From the IMG/VR virus record IMGVR_UViG_3300037225_000087, positions 1 to 25,207 of that record: a stretch of DNA of 25,207 nt; one strand, 5' to 3'. Below the pieces are notes generated by a model. It had not been told where the DNA came from, made no database searches, and saw only the letters and a program-made list of their open reading frames with translations. Origin of the DNA: a virus. The position numbers were made by a program, and so were the translations under genes. Of the stretch, positions 15,492-23,975 are shown piece after piece; position 1 is the first letter of the stretch; every line of letters starts with the position of its first letter.

Positions 15492-16055
15492 TTACTTTTT
15501 GACCGACATGGAGCATGGCGCTTTCCAGGCGTCCTGCACCGGATTGGCTTCTTTCTTCTCGGCGTTCGGATCACTGTCCTGATTCGTATTCACGGCGGCT
15601 TTGCGCTGGGATGCGATTGCCTCTTTGCGCTGCTTGGTGTCGCCGGCGGTAAGCGCGGCATCAAACATGGCCGAAACGTACTCGGCGCTTTTGCCGTCCA
15701 TTTTCAGTTCGGGGAAAACCTTGGCAATGACCAGGCCTTTAATCTCGGCATCGGTTTTGCCCTTGAGGTCAGCAGCGTCGCAAATCAGGGACGCGGATTC
15801 CACCAGGGCGATACGAGCGGCAATGCCGTCCTGCACCAGCTTTTCGGTATCCACGGCCTTGATTTTGGTGAGTTCGGCCTTGGCCGCGTCGCGTTCGGCG
15901 GTCACGGTGTCAAGTTTGGTTTTGTTTTGTGCGCTGTCCGCATTGGCGGTGGTCAGCGCCGTTGTTGCAGTTGCGCAATCCGTGCGGGCCTTGACCAGCG
16001 CGTTTACGATACTTTCCGGGGCTTCAACTTCCACGCCGTCGAGATTGTATTTCAT
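15492..16055 (-). CDS. Nested scaffolding protein, internal in-frame start
   Basis: Met199 of the protease gene has its own strong ribosome binding site: AAGGAG at 16069-16064, eight bases before ATG 16055. Independent initiation would give a 187-residue protein, beginning MKYNLDGVEVEAPESIVNAL, that is only the coiled-coil scaffold. This is the arrangement of lambda C/Nu3, where the short product is made in excess and co-assembles with the capsid protein. Confidence 0.78.
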   Translation of the reverse strand: MKYNLDGVEVEAPESIVNALVKARTDCATATTALTTANADSAQNKTKLDTVTAERDAAKAELTKIKAVDTEKLVQDGIAARIALVESASLICDAADLKGKTDAEIKGLVIAKVFPELKMDGKSAEYVSAMFDAALTAGDTKQRKEAIASQRKAAVNTNQDSDPNAEKKEANPVQDAWKAPCSMSVKK

Positions 16056-16649
16056 TTTCCGTTCTCCTTGAGAAAGGTTGGTGGTTAAATTCAATGCCAG
16101 TGGATTTTCCATAATGTCCGCGGTGTCCATGTTAAGCCGCGCGCAATCACCGGCCCGGCCTTGATCAACGATTGCCAGGTGGTTGCCTCGTATATTGGTC
16201 TGTCGGTAGTCGTATTTCAGGCCATCGGCGGTAATTCCGGGTTCATCAATGTCTTCGGAATCATAGGCCAGGGAAAGCCCGCGCCGGCCATCCTTGACCG
16301 CCTGAACGCCCGCCTTGTCCATGATGGTGCCGGTCAATTTAAGGTAATTGCCGTCTTGCCGGACATTTTCGCCTATGGCGCCGATTTGGAATTGTTTTAC
16401 ATTGTCGGCGGTTATTTTCGGCGTAACGCCCATTTCGTGGTTGTTGACAATGGGCTTGAGTGCAAAACTGGCCATTGAATCGGCTTTAAAAACTTCGGCG
16501 GGCGCCCGATATACCCGGCGCGTGCTGCCGTCGGCGTTGTAATAAATAAAAATGCCGGAGCGCGAGGCAATGGCATCGAATCTAAGATAGCCTTCGGGCG
16601 TGGTTGTAACGGAACCGATCGAACTTCTATCGTAATAAGTCTTGAGCAT
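15492..16649 (-). CDS. Prohead protease-scaffold fusion, DUF2213-type
   Basis: A 385-residue protein. Residues about 1-165 form the protease: TTTPEGYLRFDAIASRSGIF, KPIVNNHEMGVTPK (His71), GRRGLSLAYDSEDID (Ser126) and TNIRGNHLAIVDQGRAGD (His157); DUF2213 is related to the herpes-type assembly proteases, and Ser126 with the two histidines are the likely catalytic residues. Residues about 205-385 are Ala/Lys/Asp-rich and largely coiled coil, the scaffold. It cleaves and matures the procapsid. ATG 16649 directly follows a terminator-like hairpin that also contains its only RBS (GAGG). Confidence 0.87.
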   Translation of the reverse strand: MLKTYYDRSSIGSVTTTPEGYLRFDAIASRSGIFIYYNADGSTRRVYRAPAEVFKADSMASFALKPIVNNHEMGVTPKITADNVKQFQIGAIGENVRQDGNYLKLTGTIMDKAGVQAVKDGRRGLSLAYDSEDIDEPGITADGLKYDYRQTNIRGNHLAIVDQGRAGDCARLNMDTADIMENPLALNLTTNLSQGERKMKYNLDGVEVEAPESIVNALVKARTDCATATTALTTANADSAQNKTKLDTVTAERDAAKAELTKIKAVDTEKLVQDGIAARIALVESASLICDAADLKGKTDAEIKGLVIAKVFPELKMDGKSAEYVSAMFDAALTAGDTKQRKEAIASQRKAAVNTNQDSDPNAEKKEANPVQDAWKAPCSMSVKK

Positions 16650-17374: not shown

Positions 17375-18172
17375 TTAGACGTGCGGCACTACAGACAGAA
17401 TAGGAACATAGCCGAGCGTCCCATTAAAATTAACATAAATTACTCCGATACAGGCATCCCCGCCCGTTGCGACTTTCGATGTATTCGCAACCGCCAGACC
17501 GTTCGAAGACTGCAAATACAAGAAGGCATCCCAGTTCCCAGCGCCCGGGGCGTCGGCCCGAATACAAACCACTTTTCCGGTGCTGTTGCGGCCACCCGAA
17601 ACGTCGCCGGATTTGATGTATAAACCCGAGGCGACGGCCCCTGCGGTGACATACGCCGTAGAAATGACATCAATCATGGCCATAACGCCACAACAAATTC
17701 CTCCGCCCGTGACCGCCGTGCCGATGGTTTCAAAATATCCCCATAGACCATATTGACAGCCATTGCCCGGCGAAGTAATGCCGCTGGCGACCTTGACATG
17801 CCCTTGCACGCCGCCGATTGACATATCGACGTTGCCGTGGGAAAATCCGATAACAGTACGGCCCTCAAAGGCACACACCGAATTTCCCGTGGCAATCTGT
17901 ACGCCGCCATCATCAGCATAAATAGCGCCAATCCGCTCTCTTGTCGCGGTCATTGCGATTCCGCTGCCAGCAACGTTTGCCTTTACGCCAATACGTCGGA
18001 TTCCGCTTGTGGAATCTATCCGAAACGTATTGGCATGCATAGTACGCAGGTTTACGGCATCGCAATCATTTGTCGCGTCGCCGACGTTTTCGAGTTTGCC
18101 GAGAACGTTGACTTCTGCCAGCCCACTCGAATCAATTTCTCGGTTGACATTCGGATTAACTTGATCGCCCAT
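17375..18172 (-). CDS. Putative head fibre/decoration-like structural protein
   Basis: A 265-residue Gly/Val/Ala-rich protein that looks like mostly beta structure. It begins MGDQVNPNVNREIDSSGLAE, has FRIDSTSGIRRIGVKANVAG and GVMAMIDVISTAYVTAGAVA, and a C-terminus with VIYVNFNGTLGYVPILSVVP. The N-terminal phrase LENVGDATNDCDAVNLRTM resembles linkers in phage fibres. It sits among minor head genes, so a capsid fibre or decoration role fits better than a tail role. RBS AAGGAG lies seven bases before ATG 18172. Confidence 0.72.
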   Translation of the reverse strand: MGDQVNPNVNREIDSSGLAEVNVLGKLENVGDATNDCDAVNLRTMHANTFRIDSTSGIRRIGVKANVAGSGIAMTATRERIGAIYADDGGVQIATGNSVCAFEGRTVIGFSHGNVDMSIGGVQGHVKVASGITSPGNGCQYGLWGYFETIGTAVTGGGICCGVMAMIDVISTAYVTAGAVASGLYIKSGDVSGGRNSTGKVVCIRADAPGAGNWDAFLYLQSSNGLAVANTSKVATGGDACIGVIYVNFNGTLGYVPILSVVPHV

Positions 18173-18948: not shown

Positions 18949-20235
18949 CTATGCGGCTTCCTCCATCAAAAGACTTTCCATGTTCGGTTCGGCCCAGCAC
19001 CGGCAATTGTAGTCTTGTCCGGGAATCAATCCGCGCATTTCCGCAGGACGCGCAATCCAGGTCTGGCCCCCATCTAAAGAGTATACATTTCCGTCGCTCC
19101 ATTTGCAAAGGCTGTCGTTCATTTCTACGTGGCTGTCGCGTTCGCGTTCGTCGCCCACGCCGCGCCACCAATATTCATCAACCCCCACGCCCTGTTGCCG
19201 GTACTGCGCGATATCGCCGTTTAATTTATTTACCTGGTCGCGGGCAATAAGGCGGGCGCGCGTTTTGACCTTGCCAAAAACCCCCCGCGTCAAATCGGTA
19301 TCGGCGAGAATATCGTTTGCAATTGTGTTGTACCTGTCGCCATTGCGCACGCCTTGGGAAACCGTAAGGCGCACGTCCTTATAAACTTGGGCCTCCACGT
19401 CATTAATCAGCGTCACATTGTCATGCAAAAAGGCTTCCATGCGCCCGGTCAATAGCGGCTCCTTGCCGTAAAGCTGAATGCCTATGGCGGCATTGCAGAT
19501 TTTATACCATTGCGCGGCGTTGAAAGTATTGGTTTTATATGTCACGGATTCCAGGGCTTCGAGCATTTTAGGCTGTGGGAAAATGGAATCGAATGAATCC
19601 TGAAAGTCGCCCATGAGCGTGTCAAGATCGGCAGACCATGCGTCCTGTTTCAACGCCCCCACCTCGGCCAGCATGCCCTTGACTTTTGGCAGTATTTTTG
19701 TTTCCACCTCGGCCTGCAGCTTGGCGATAAAGGCAAGCAAAATCTTGCGGTAATAAACTTCCACCGTCAACGGGTACATCCAGCGCGGGGCCTTGCCGGG
19801 CTTGCGCTTTAGCCGGTTTGCATGTACGGCAAGTCGGTGCTTGATTAGCGGCGGCAGCGCGTCCTGGTTTAATGCGGGCGTGAAATCTTCCGGCGCGGGC
19901 ATGGCGGCAATATGGGCCTTGATTTTCAGCCAGTCGATAGGAAAACTATGGTCGTCAATATAAAAATCTGCAAACGCCTTACGCGATGTTGGGAAAGCGC
20001 CGGGCCAGTTTTCGTTTATCGCGTCAAAGACAATCCCCTGCTCATGCAAAAAGCGCAGTGCTACGGCCAAGCGCGTTCCCGTGCGGCACGTCCAAAGCAC
20101 AAGATAATTTCCCTGTTCGCGTATCCATGCCAATACTTCGACGGCATGGGGCAATAGTCGGCGCGGAATTTGGTCAACCTCGGTATAGGCGATACTGCCG
20201 TCAAAATCCGAAAATATTATACGAGGGCGGGTCAT
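18949..20235 (-). CDS. HAD hydrolase-MuF minor head protein fusion
   Basis: A 428-residue protein; the start chosen is ATG 20235, because it overlaps the portal stop (TAATG) and begins the HAD domain directly; an upstream ATG adds 10 residues. Residues 1-115 are a HAD phosphohydrolase: IIFSDFDGSIAYTE with nucleophile Asp10 and acid Asp12, LVLWTCRTG (Thr49), SRKAFADFYIDDHS with Lys86 and Asp94/Asp95. All four motifs are intact. Residues about 285-412 are MuF/SPP1 gp7-like: RARLIARDQVNKLNGDIAQY, GVGDERERDSHVEMN and PGQDYNCRCW. The helical middle links them. MuF proteins are minor head parts packaged near the portal. Confidence 0.88.
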   Translation of the reverse strand: MTRPRIIFSDFDGSIAYTEVDQIPRRLLPHAVEVLAWIREQGNYLVLWTCRTGTRLAVALRFLHEQGIVFDAINENWPGAFPTSRKAFADFYIDDHSFPIDWLKIKAHIAAMPAPEDFTPALNQDALPPLIKHRLAVHANRLKRKPGKAPRWMYPLTVEVYYRKILLAFIAKLQAEVETKILPKVKGMLAEVGALKQDAWSADLDTLMGDFQDSFDSIFPQPKMLEALESVTYKTNTFNAAQWYKICNAAIGIQLYGKEPLLTGRMEAFLHDNVTLINDVEAQVYKDVRLTVSQGVRNGDRYNTIANDILADTDLTRGVFGKVKTRARLIARDQVNKLNGDIAQYRQQGVGVDEYWWRGVGDERERDSHVEMNDSLCKWSDGNVYSLDGGQTWIARPAEMRGLIPGQDYNCRCWAEPNMESLLMEEAA

Positions 20236-22397
20236 TATAATTTTAACTCCCCACCTACCTGGCACCGCGCCCTTACATCCGCCTCTTTAAACTGTACTGG
20301 GTTGCCGCTTAAATCCAGATTGCGTCCGACCTTCTTAGGCAGATAATCCAGCGTTGTCAACTGGTTCCCGTTTAAAAGCAGGTCGCCCGGAATTTCGTCC
20401 GGCAGGCCCTGCATGCTTGACACCTTGCACATATAGGCGTGTAAGTCTTTTTTTACTTTTGGGCAACCGATAAAATTGGTTATGCCGGAATTATGGCAGT
20501 GAAAGTCCGTGCATTCTTTCGGCCCGCCCGTTAAGCTGGTCATTTCCGCGCATGAACAACAATGAAAATCTTCCGTCTTTTCTGGCGCCCCAAGCAAATC
20601 CTCTATCGGGTTTTTGTTGACAATAACGGCGCCATTGACAATACGCGGAAGCCCCGCGAGCGTGGTCAATTCGTTATTGGAAAGATTGATAAAGCCGTTG
20701 TAAAATTGCGGCAGCTTTAAATCCACCAGCGTTTTTAAGCCAGTATTCGATACATCAAGACCGTCGCTGGAATCTGCATTGACTTTTTCTTTCGTGGTTT
20801 TAACCGGCTTCCCGGCAGGAGTATTTTTATTGGGAACCGCCCCGCCCTTCGCCGCTGCCAGTGCCAGGGCGTTGGCGTGGTCTGCCTCGGCCTGTTCTTC
20901 CGCCGCCGTCTTAAATTTGGGATCGCTTTCGTTTTCGCTCAACGTGGTTTCAAACGAATACGCCTGACTGCCGAAACGGCTCTGGCCGATGGTGCCCTGG
21001 GCGTCAGCGATAACGCCGCTCTCAAGATAAATCTGATCTGTCAACGCCTGCTTATTGCGCATGTCAACAATATCTTTTTGCGTGGGTTGCCAGAGCGGAT
21101 TGAATTTGATCGGACTGTTTTCTTCCACGGGCTTGCCCATACTGATATTGACGTAGTTGACAAGCCGCTCCATCTGGTCAAGCATTTTTTCTTCTTGAAA
21201 AACGGAAACGCGGTCGTACCAAAAGCGCACCTGGGCCGCCTCATCATCCGAAAGCCCGCCCTGCGAGCGTCCGAAAAGCAGGCACATCGGCAAACCCTTT
21301 TGCGCCGCCAGGCTCTCAAGGATTAAATCAACGAGGTCTTTAAGCCCGGATACCTGCGAACTGATGCGCTCGTATTTCTGATTTTCATCAAGCAGAACCG
21401 AATTTATAACGTGTTTGCCCTGGTCAACTTGGGTCAGATACGCCTGCACCTCTTTTTCTTTTCCCTCGGCAAGCAGGTTCATAAGATTGTGTATTGTCAG
21501 AGTGCCCAGCACAAACTCGCTGATGATATGCTCGATATTGTTGTATGTTTCGCCCGTGGCCCGCAGTCTGTCCCAGCAGGATTGAAAAATTGAATCCGCC
21601 CAGCCTTGGTTCTGGAACCGTGTAACATCCGGCACCGGATCGCCTTCAAAGCGCAAGCAGCGGGATTCGTGGACAAAAAACGGCTCACCGAAAATGGGGG
21701 TGATGCGGTATACCTGCGGGTGCCCGTAAGAATCGTTTGATGGATCGAGATAAAGGTCAGCAGGATTTATCGTAATGCGGTAACGGTCAAAGACCAATAG
21801 CTGCAACACGCCTTTAAGGCGCGCCAGGTTCACGGGTTGGTCAAACTTGCCGCCGTCATCCAGCACCATAATAGCCAGCGAGCCGCCGTATAGTTCGCCC
21901 CACATTATCGCTTTTTTAATTTCCTGCTTGGCGTGGATTTTTTTAAGGTAACCCTCGATCTTTTTGTCAGTATCGCCCTCTACTGTCCACCAAGCGCGAG
22001 TCATGTCACCGACAATGCGGTGTAAGATTATGCGGCCCAGGCCGTCGCTGCGGTATATGTCGGTCAGGTCTTGGTAACGCAGGCGGGCTTCGGGCGCGAA
22101 CGTCGTGGCAAGTTTGCGGTCATGGCCCGGAACGCCCATTCCAGAAATGAGGTTCATCCACGAATCCATAGAAAAACTATCTTTTGTAAACAACGGGGCC
22201 ATTCTTCCTCTTGGGAAAACTACACCCGCATTTACAGCCTTGCGATGCCCGATTGGCTTGGGATCGGATGCGCTGTCGGCGCTCATGTTATTGCGAGGTA
22301 TGATTTTATGATTTTCCCGGTATCGGCGTTGTCTGATTGCTGCGGCGGACCGGATTCTGTCAAGAGCATCGGATGTGGCGTCGGTTTTATTGGGCAT
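20235..22397 (-). CDS. Portal protein, DUF1073-type, with C-terminal leucine-rich repeats
   Basis: A 720-residue protein. Residues about 65-500 match DUF1073 (HI1409-like) portals: SMDSWMNLISGMGVPGHDRK, LTDIYRSDGLGRIILHRIVG, MTRAWWTVEG, LLFGRSQGGLSDDEAAQVRF and FNPLWQPTQKDIVDMRNKQA. It forms the dodecameric DNA channel and docks the terminase. A linker (500-545, Ala/Lys/Thr-rich) leads to residues about 546-700, a leucine-rich repeat domain (FINLSNNELTTLAGLP, DLLLNGNQLTTLDYLP, NLDLSGNP) with a Cys/His-rich centre. The end, FKEADVRARCQVGGELKL, is a tail common in phage LRR proteins. RBS AAGGA precedes ATG 22397. Confidence 0.9.
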   Translation of the reverse strand: MPNKTDATSDALDRIRSAAAIRQRRYRENHKIIPRNNMSADSASDPKPIGHRKAVNAGVVFPRGRMAPLFTKDSFSMDSWMNLISGMGVPGHDRKLATTFAPEARLRYQDLTDIYRSDGLGRIILHRIVGDMTRAWWTVEGDTDKKIEGYLKKIHAKQEIKKAIMWGELYGGSLAIMVLDDGGKFDQPVNLARLKGVLQLLVFDRYRITINPADLYLDPSNDSYGHPQVYRITPIFGEPFFVHESRCLRFEGDPVPDVTRFQNQGWADSIFQSCWDRLRATGETYNNIEHIISEFVLGTLTIHNLMNLLAEGKEKEVQAYLTQVDQGKHVINSVLLDENQKYERISSQVSGLKDLVDLILESLAAQKGLPMCLLFGRSQGGLSDDEAAQVRFWYDRVSVFQEEKMLDQMERLVNYVNISMGKPVEENSPIKFNPLWQPTQKDIVDMRNKQALTDQIYLESGVIADAQGTIGQSRFGSQAYSFETTLSENESDPKFKTAAEEQAEADHANALALAAAKGGAVPNKNTPAGKPVKTTKEKVNADSSDGLDVSNTGLKTLVDLKLPQFYNGFINLSNNELTTLAGLPRIVNGAVIVNKNPIEDLLGAPEKTEDFHCCSCAEMTSLTGGPKECTDFHCHNSGITNFIGCPKVKKDLHAYMCKVSSMQGLPDEIPGDLLLNGNQLTTLDYLPKKVGRNLDLSGNPVQFKEADVRARCQVGGELKL

Positions 22398-22472: not shown

Positions 22473-23975
22473 TTATGACCCGAACCATTCCTTTGCGGAA
22501 GGCATGTGATTGTTTTCCAAAGGCTCAATATATTTGTCACTGAAAAACGCCAGGCAGCAGGCGTCGCCGTCGTCGGTAGACCGGCCAATACGCTCTTTAA
22601 TATCGGCTTTGCTTTCGATCAGTATTTTGCCATCGCTGCGGGTCTTGCGGCGCGGCGCCGTCAGATCGCCGATCAGCAGCGGGTCGTCGGGCAGACAGAT
22701 ATTTTCTTCGTTGGCCGGATCCAGCAACTCTCGCATGCACCACCACAATGCTGCCCTGGTGTTGGCAAATTCAAGGAGTCCACTGCGGTCCCGGCGCTCC
22801 GATTTCTCGGCGAAGTTTACGCAGTTCACGCGGCGGCGGAAACCGTCAAGCTCTTTAAGTCGCCCGGCCGTGCCCGCACCCTCACCGAATGATGTGTCGA
22901 TATTTAGCAACCCTTTGGTTCCCAAAATGATTTTAAGCTCGCCCGCAAGTTCCATGGGCTCAGATTTCGATTCCCGCTGTATTTTTTGCAACACTTTTTT
23001 ATACCGAAAGCAAAAACTTGTCATATCCGCGCCCTGACCGGCAGTGTCAGCGCCCACGATCAAATTACCCTCGACCGCCGAATGCTCGTTTTTCTGCCAG
23101 GCATACCAGCGCTGTATGGCCGCCTCTACCCAAGTCAGCGGAATTACCGATTGTGGGTCGTCGGTTGCGAATATGCCCCACACACGGTTTTGATATACCG
23201 GGCTGCTTTTGCCCCACTGTTTGTTCTTTTCCCTGGCCCAGGCCATTGATATCTGTCCGGCCCGGATGGCCTCGCGTAACGACACGTGGCGCACCTTCCA
23301 ACTTTCGTAGCCATGCGCGCGGCTGCAGATGTTATAAAAAACGCCCGATGTGTCACCGGGCGTTGATAGGGCAATGTGGATATGGTCGCCGGGCGTTGAA
23401 AACGCTCCTTCGGCGCTTTCCCACGTGCCTGAGATTATGGTTTTGGATTCATCGAAAATGTAACACACGCGCTTGGCGTGCGCGCCCTCGATTGTCGCCG
23501 GGGTGTCTGAGGCCACGGCGAACGCCTTTGATTGCGGCCCAAACTGACATTCCAGATTTAATAGACGCGGTTTAGCCCCGCCCTGGTCTATAATTGCCTG
23601 CCAATTCACTCGTCCGCACCACTTGTGGACTTCGGGCCAGAGAAATTCTTCGAGCTGCCGCCACGCGCTGGCCGTGGTGGGTATTTTGCAATCGGCGCTC
23701 ACCGAACCCGCCCATAAAATAATCAGCGCGGCAATAACGGATTTGCCCAAGCCGTGAGGCCCGTATACCGCCATTTTATTGTTTCCAGCGCCGATCATTT
23801 TTAAAATATCCTCGCCATAAGGCGGAAGGCTTATGGCAACAAAATCCTTAACCCATTGGAAAGGGTTGTTATAATATTTTATTTGATAATCGCGGGAGAT
23901 CGGCCTTATCTGAGCCAATCGCTTTTCCAATTCGATTGCCGCCGCGATAAGTTCTTCCCTTGTAAATTGTGTCAT
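22473..23975 (-). CDS. terL: Terminase large subunit
   Basis: A 500-residue DNA-packaging motor. The ATPase has Walker A GPHGLGKS (72-79), Walker B CYIFDE (171-176) and a coupling motif ALSTPGDTSG (202-211). The nuclease domain has GADTAGQGADMT (Asp310), TSFGEGAGTAG and STDDGDACCLAFFSD (Asp469/Asp471 region), consistent with an intact RNase H-like metal site. It translocates DNA through the portal and cuts it. Four bases separate it from terS, with GGAG twelve bases before ATG 23975. Length and domains are complete. Confidence 0.95.
   Translation of the reverse strand: MTQFTREELIAAAIELEKRLAQIRPISRDYQIKYYNNPFQWVKDFVAISLPPYGEDILKMIGAGNNKMAVYGPHGLGKSVIAALIILWAGSVSADCKIPTTASAWRQLEEFLWPEVHKWCGRVNWQAIIDQGGAKPRLLNLECQFGPQSKAFAVASDTPATIEGAHAKRVCYIFDESKTIISGTWESAEGAFSTPGDHIHIALSTPGDTSGVFYNICSRAHGYESWKVRHVSLREAIRAGQISMAWAREKNKQWGKSSPVYQNRVWGIFATDDPQSVIPLTWVEAAIQRWYAWQKNEHSAVEGNLIVGADTAGQGADMTSFCFRYKKVLQKIQRESKSEPMELAGELKIILGTKGLLNIDTSFGEGAGTAGRLKELDGFRRRVNCVNFAEKSERRDRSGLLEFANTRAALWWCMRELLDPANEENICLPDDPLLIGDLTAPRRKTRSDGKILIESKADIKERIGRSTDDGDACCLAFFSDKYIEPLENNHMPSAKEWFGS

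Follow-up and report, generated by a model that had tools for sequence, protein, structure and literature searches.

In a 25,207-nucleotide stretch of viral DNA (IMG/VR record IMGVR_UViG_3300037225_000087, here called the window), a small HAD phosphohydrolase domain is fused in frame to the N-terminus of a MuF minor head protein, and we put at about 0.58 the probability that the product is a portal-anchored phosphohydrolase carried in the virion. The fusion gene (18949..20235, minus strand) encodes 428 aa in one open frame, which begins with an ATG at 20235 and contains zero internal stops over its 428 codons; the other two frames carry 6 and 7 stops across the HAD stretch. The HAD domain matches profiles over residues 4-110 (19906..20226, minus strand), with the capless domain reaching residues ~4-115, and is followed by a linker at residues 118-153 (19777..19884, minus strand), a large part of which is predicted to be disordered, and by the MuF part at residues 154-421 (18973..19776, minus strand), with an NCRC motif at its end. 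The MuF part matches PF04233 over residues 287-414 (E 2.1e-14; 54.6 bits against a gathering score of 29.6) and PHROG 324 over residues 140-421 (E 3e-61); since this homology extends to residue 421 of 428, a variable C-terminal toxin domain after MuF is absent. An AlphaFold2 model of the fusion, built from 59 aligned sequences, displays a HAD block with pLDDT values mostly between 83 and 96 (66 around residues 81-90), a linker below 50 at residues 118-132 and 134-153, and a helical MuF part. The initial annotation had proposed this N-terminal joining, which the uninterrupted frame and the profile matches to both domains support, and had rightly called the arrangement unusual. In the MuF polymorphic toxins of temperate phages (PMC5576092), whose gene also follows that of the portal immediately, MuF has an added domain as well, but the effector there is a C-terminal toxin, whereas here the phosphohydrolase is N-terminal and MuF runs on to the C-terminus.

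The HAD part matched PHROG 1238 over residues 4-110 (E 1.5e-21) and the NCBIfam BT0820 HAD model (NF046079; E 1.4e-15) with 57.9 bits, against a curated equivalog cut-off of 165 bits; as judged from its sequence it is a relative of BT0820, not an equivalog. BT_0820 (PDB 2OBB) is also the nearest solved structure (sequence match 2.5e-8; Foldseek match 1.8e-6), and comparison of our model with 2OBB gave a structural Z of 15.9 and an rmsd of 2.3 over 109 residues, which assigns the domain to the HAD fold. BT_0820 and the phage HADs named 'phosphoheptose isomerase' or 5'-nucleotidase, such as SPO1 gp30.2, consist of the same small domain at ~30-46% identity; those proteins are free-standing and, as far as seen, outside head operons, whereas the window HAD is fused and lies within one. 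Across an alignment of 69 HAD rows, D10, D12, R51, N74, K86, D94 and D95 are invariant, and the T49 column holds T in 67 rows and S in 2. The K and DD columns belonged to the search pattern, so that their conservation is not independent, while that of the remaining motif columns is. The fusion of the two domains with these motifs lies, as an observation, far beyond chance, and the four motifs previously assigned to Asp10/Asp12, Thr49, Lys86 and Asp94/Asp95 were correctly numbered.

The head operon around the fusion indicates where the HAD domain came in. The terminase large subunit (22473..23975, minus strand; PHROG 2, 2.1e-25) lies upstream of the portal gene (20235-22397), which in turn directly precedes the HAD-MuF gene, as is usual for MuF genes. 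The portal core (20772..22397, minus strand; residues 1-542; PF06381, 2.2e-69) is followed by a leucine-rich-repeat (LRR) tail of ~178 aa (20238..20771, minus strand; residues 543-720), which gave a weak match to an LRR-type profile and which, among phages, comes closest to hypothetical proteins from a pair of nearly identical ~196 kb Vibrio phages (33%, tblastn). IMG/VR yielded five contigs from the lineage of the window phage, their portals being 64-78% identical to that of the window. MuF identity to the window reached 52-59% in L011, L012 and L018 and 50% over the whole alignment in L019, which has one MuF sequence in common with L020. No HAD was detected in the compared stretches of the five contigs, an absence bounded by the sensitivity of tblastn, and none of their portals bears the LRR tail, which is missing from them in the alignment. 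The lineage MuF proteins begin at fusion residue ~127-143 (~127-130 in L011 and L012), and the L011 and L012 portals stop at a point near window-portal residue 542. Over the portal-MuF junction, the window phage thus has ~0.9 kb of additional sequence, made up of the portal LRR tail and the MuF HAD. Because the relatives have MuF without HAD and portals without LRR, sequence comparison places the addition of both domains at this junction, in the window lineage; the absence of HAD from all five contigs likewise marks it as an acquisition kept in frame and not a MuF subdomain. An assembly error, or two separate genes, was considered and rejected, given that the compared stretches of the relatives hold no HAD at all and that the GC (0.524) and GC3 (0.563) of the HAD stretch are close to those of neighbouring sequence. 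A GGACT-like domain (gamma-glutamylcyclotransferase/AIG2; PF06094, 3e-5, above the cut-off) was observed in mid-MuF in L019 (L019:3959-5236) and L020 (L020:5455-6735), and this insert indicates that MuF genes of the lineage took up small domains more than once.

Translation of the fusion appears to depend on a single start. The portal stop and the start codon of HAD-MuF overlap (TAATG); a putative ribosome-binding site, GGTGGGGAG (20247..20255, minus strand), lies within the end of the portal gene with an anti-SD duplex of -8.0 kcal/mol. Near the HAD/MuF border the candidate starts are M112 (-3.0 kcal/mol) and M153 (-3.8 kcal/mol), neither of them good, and a HAD-free MuF made from an internal start was therefore rejected. 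In the lack of a comparable start at this border, HAD-MuF is probably made only as a fusion. A head maturation protease of the DUF2213 type, encoded at 15492..16649 on the minus strand (PF09979, 2.1e-40; PHROG 530, 1.3e-88), is by its profile matches a candidate for cutting HAD-MuF during maturation. A further head-region gene of 265 aa (17375-18172, minus strand) gave zero Pfam or PHROG matches.

The same HAD type was found on other head proteins. It is N-terminal to an S78 prohead protease in Lactobacillus phage LJ (L005:4010-4966) and at L158:2474-3400 and L183:2480-3412, N-terminal to a ClpP-type protease at L136:3-1163, L184:2489-3652 (L185 being the same) and L200:2486-3646, and C-terminal on a PF04860 portal at L186:1262-2806, L187:817-2334, L191:3-1121, L192:1223-2821/L195:1244-2821 and L221:753-2324; as the later IMG/VR HAD scans were partly seeded with fused HADs and the best 80 loci were kept, these counts are not frequencies. 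All head-protein fusions lie directly at the junction between portal and next gene, and wherever the gene order can be read, the portal comes first, then the protease, then the major capsid protein (the L136 sequence breaks off upstream); the HAD-bearing portals are followed by a ClpP-type protease and then by the major capsid protein. An Acetoanaerobium phage match (H235) taken at first as HAD-ClpP proved to be portal sequence plus protease. A close parallel is LJ orf39 (MF999224), in which the same HAD type is N-terminal on a head protein encoded after the portal, but there the HAD is attached to an S78 prohead protease that has a strong internal start of its own for the free protease, and the window partner is a MuF protein without one. 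The LJ HAD forms a clean ~330 bp insert relative to phage A2, the portal-side DNA being 97.5% identical.

The protease fusions share a nested start. At codon 110-118, on the domain border, all six distinct ones combine a strong ribosome-binding site with an in-frame TTG; the duplex energies are -19.0, -17.6, -13.2, -13.0, -13.0 and -13.0. When 1,333 internal in-frame starts were sampled, 0.3% came up to that level. The linker peptide KEVxxL, present in five of these fusions, is simply the ribosome-binding site translated in frame. From these signals, HAD-protease genes can yield both the fused and the free protease, with predicted lengths in LJ of 318 and ~209 residues; no such strong site and start at the domain border was found in the HAD-MuF or portal-HAD fusions.

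A tree of the HADs (132 rows, 107 columns), in which many forks are open and bootstrap has not settled, groups the window HAD with those of L103 and L114 (97/90), apart from the branch of protease and portal fusions (92/91, 30 rows); the portal-fused HADs form one group (100/92). As the window HAD sits in another branch, the MuF fusion is by sequence most likely a separate event from the protease and portal fusions, and a common origin with the protease-fused HADs receives no support from this tree, with its few columns and unsettled bootstrap. The HAD at L103:2474-3617, which in the tree is the one nearest to that of the window, has a GIY-YIG/NUMOD3 homing-type endonuclease immediately after it, a possible vehicle for its spread.

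HADs of the window type also occur away from head proteins. Phages commonly have free-standing copies (as in SPO1, Listeria A511-like and Enterococcus phages), which lie mostly outside head operons, and non-head fusions join the same type to Tad3, a MazG-like domain (weak match), DnaA-C, a replication-initiation-like domain and DUF6273. The fusion with Tad3, a Thoeris inhibitor, was observed at L034:2881-4746 and, by sequence likeness, in L222, L256 and L230, and PHROG 24386 seems to describe this architecture.

Searches for a second example of HAD-MuF returned none. Not one of 50,697 phage records covered the fusion at 80% coverage, nor did any among 72,556 plasmids, and eight IMG/VR scans revealed no second HAD-MuF; two genome-contig scans gave no lineage relatives of the window phage. 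Faecalibacterium phage FP_Brigit was set aside as a HAD-MuF candidate, having a MuF match and no HAD annotated there. HAD-MuF and HAD-prohead-protease fusions are unnamed in the literature searched, a field in which many subscription papers were beyond reach; HAD as a head-borne domain, its N-terminal placement on MuF and the nested start of the protease fusions were likewise not found there. The general kind, an enzyme domain fused to a head protein, is already known.

How the fusion might work is suggested by better-studied head proteins. SPP1 gp7, a MuF protein without an enzyme domain, is directed by the portal to the procapsid interior in few copies, a route like the one proposed here, and is dispensable, with ~25% of virions infectious in its absence (PMC6316719). 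Published surveys of NudE-type Nudix, 2H, ART and PBECR domains read enzyme domains on MuF, portal and capsid serine peptidase as packaged in the head and injected (PMC9503650, PMC5512222), the partners and the logic being the same as here; injection is an inference in those surveys too, and their available text neither lists HAD as a domain joined to head proteins nor mentions nested starts at domain borders. The fusions described here fall within that theme: each attaches an enzyme domain covalently to MuF, to the portal or to the prohead protease. Given the targeting of SPP1 gp7 and these surveys, we favour a portal-anchored, virion-carried enzyme. The MuF part would bind the portal, as SPP1 gp7 does with gp6, and so bring HAD into the procapsid in a few copies. 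These would stay beside both the portal and the end of the DNA and could then pass, along with the genome, into the new host or into its envelope.

The absence of HAD from relatives, together with its repeated joining to head proteins, suggests carriage of the enzyme within the virion, and the presence of the same HAD type on portal and prohead protease at the same junction lends a virion role indirect support. Against this count the finding of just one HAD-MuF example and the cytosolic uses of the family, evident from its free copies and non-head fusions. A protease partner, moreover, is normally lost in maturation, which sits badly with injection.

As a weaker inference, the HAD may act within minutes of the onset of infection, ahead of phage gene expression, and take phosphate from a nucleotide, from the end of a nucleic acid or from a signalling nucleotide. 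Action on packaged DNA ends or on host molecules, which the initial annotation put forward, is likewise conjectural. A nucleotide or nucleic-acid phosphate is favoured because the structural kin include the deoxyribonucleotidase-like 3BWV (Z 9.8) and the T4 Pnkp 3'-phosphatase (Z 8.7), because neighbours of free HAD genes include thymidylate synthase and dNMP kinase, and because PNKP-phosphatase profiles match HADs of the window type, albeit weakly. The one HAD on a MazG-like domain was counted in the same direction, itself a weak match. These substrate pointers are circumstantial: general HAD folds score almost as high as 3BWV, and the members with such neighbours may be mutually related.

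We consider it unlikely that the tethered HAD acts instead in head assembly or DNA packaging, with no role after ejection, for instance by taking phosphate off a head protein or a protein bound to DNA, or by trimming DNA-end phosphates. MuF, portal and both protease types all act in the procapsid, the protease partner exists mainly before maturation, and an unrelated virus offers a precedent in baculovirus 38K, a viral HAD with DxD, S/T, K and DD motifs that are required for nucleocapsid assembly via dephosphorylation of P6.9 (PMC5899202); as 38K belongs to another HAD family and to a eukaryotic virus, the likeness is one of analogy only. The second Foldseek match to our HAD model, a weak one, is to one of the chains of an AcMNPV nucleocapsid structure. 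However, near relatives build heads without HAD, so that it is no general need, and a phosphorylated phage head substrate is not known here.

Less probable still is a hitch-hiking moron, in which a HAD landed after the portal for late expression and the loss of its stop gave an accidental fusion with a cytosolic role or none. Such an origin would suit the clean LJ insertion, in which the protease kept its own ribosome-binding site and start, as well as a family that is widely free-standing and joined to unrelated proteins, and a lineage whose MuF genes gain further domains such as the GGACT-like insert of L019 and L020. Yet the HAD has repeatedly been joined to head proteins, from four families in all and in either orientation, at the portal C-terminus and at the protease or MuF N-terminus, and neither the window fusion nor the portal fusions have a strong start that would free a separate head protein or HAD. 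That the HAD is a non-catalytic spacer or binding module is highly improbable: its motif I reads DFDGS in place of the usual DFDGT and its tree branch is long (1.13), but the catalytic residues are all kept and S occupies the same motif I position in further alignment rows.

Taken together, this analysis leaves a portal-anchored, virion-carried phosphohydrolase as our preferred reading of HAD-MuF. A broader proposal, which we advance only tentatively, is that small HADs form a recurrent virion-borne class, tethered independently to MuF, to the portal C-terminus or, by way of a nested gene that yields fused as well as free protease, to the prohead protease. Entering along with the DNA, such enzymes would break down a nucleotide signal or mend nucleic-acid ends ahead of the immune response of the host. 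The enzyme domains that head proteins carry mark possible needs of phages in the first moments of infection, and a phosphatase-type domain with four head partners at one junction suggests selection for carriage in the particle. The nested start of the protease fusions is a testable way in which a phage may set the dose of a tethered enzyme, and these fusions offer a possible handle on a large phage HAD family that is often misnamed 'phosphoheptose isomerase'.
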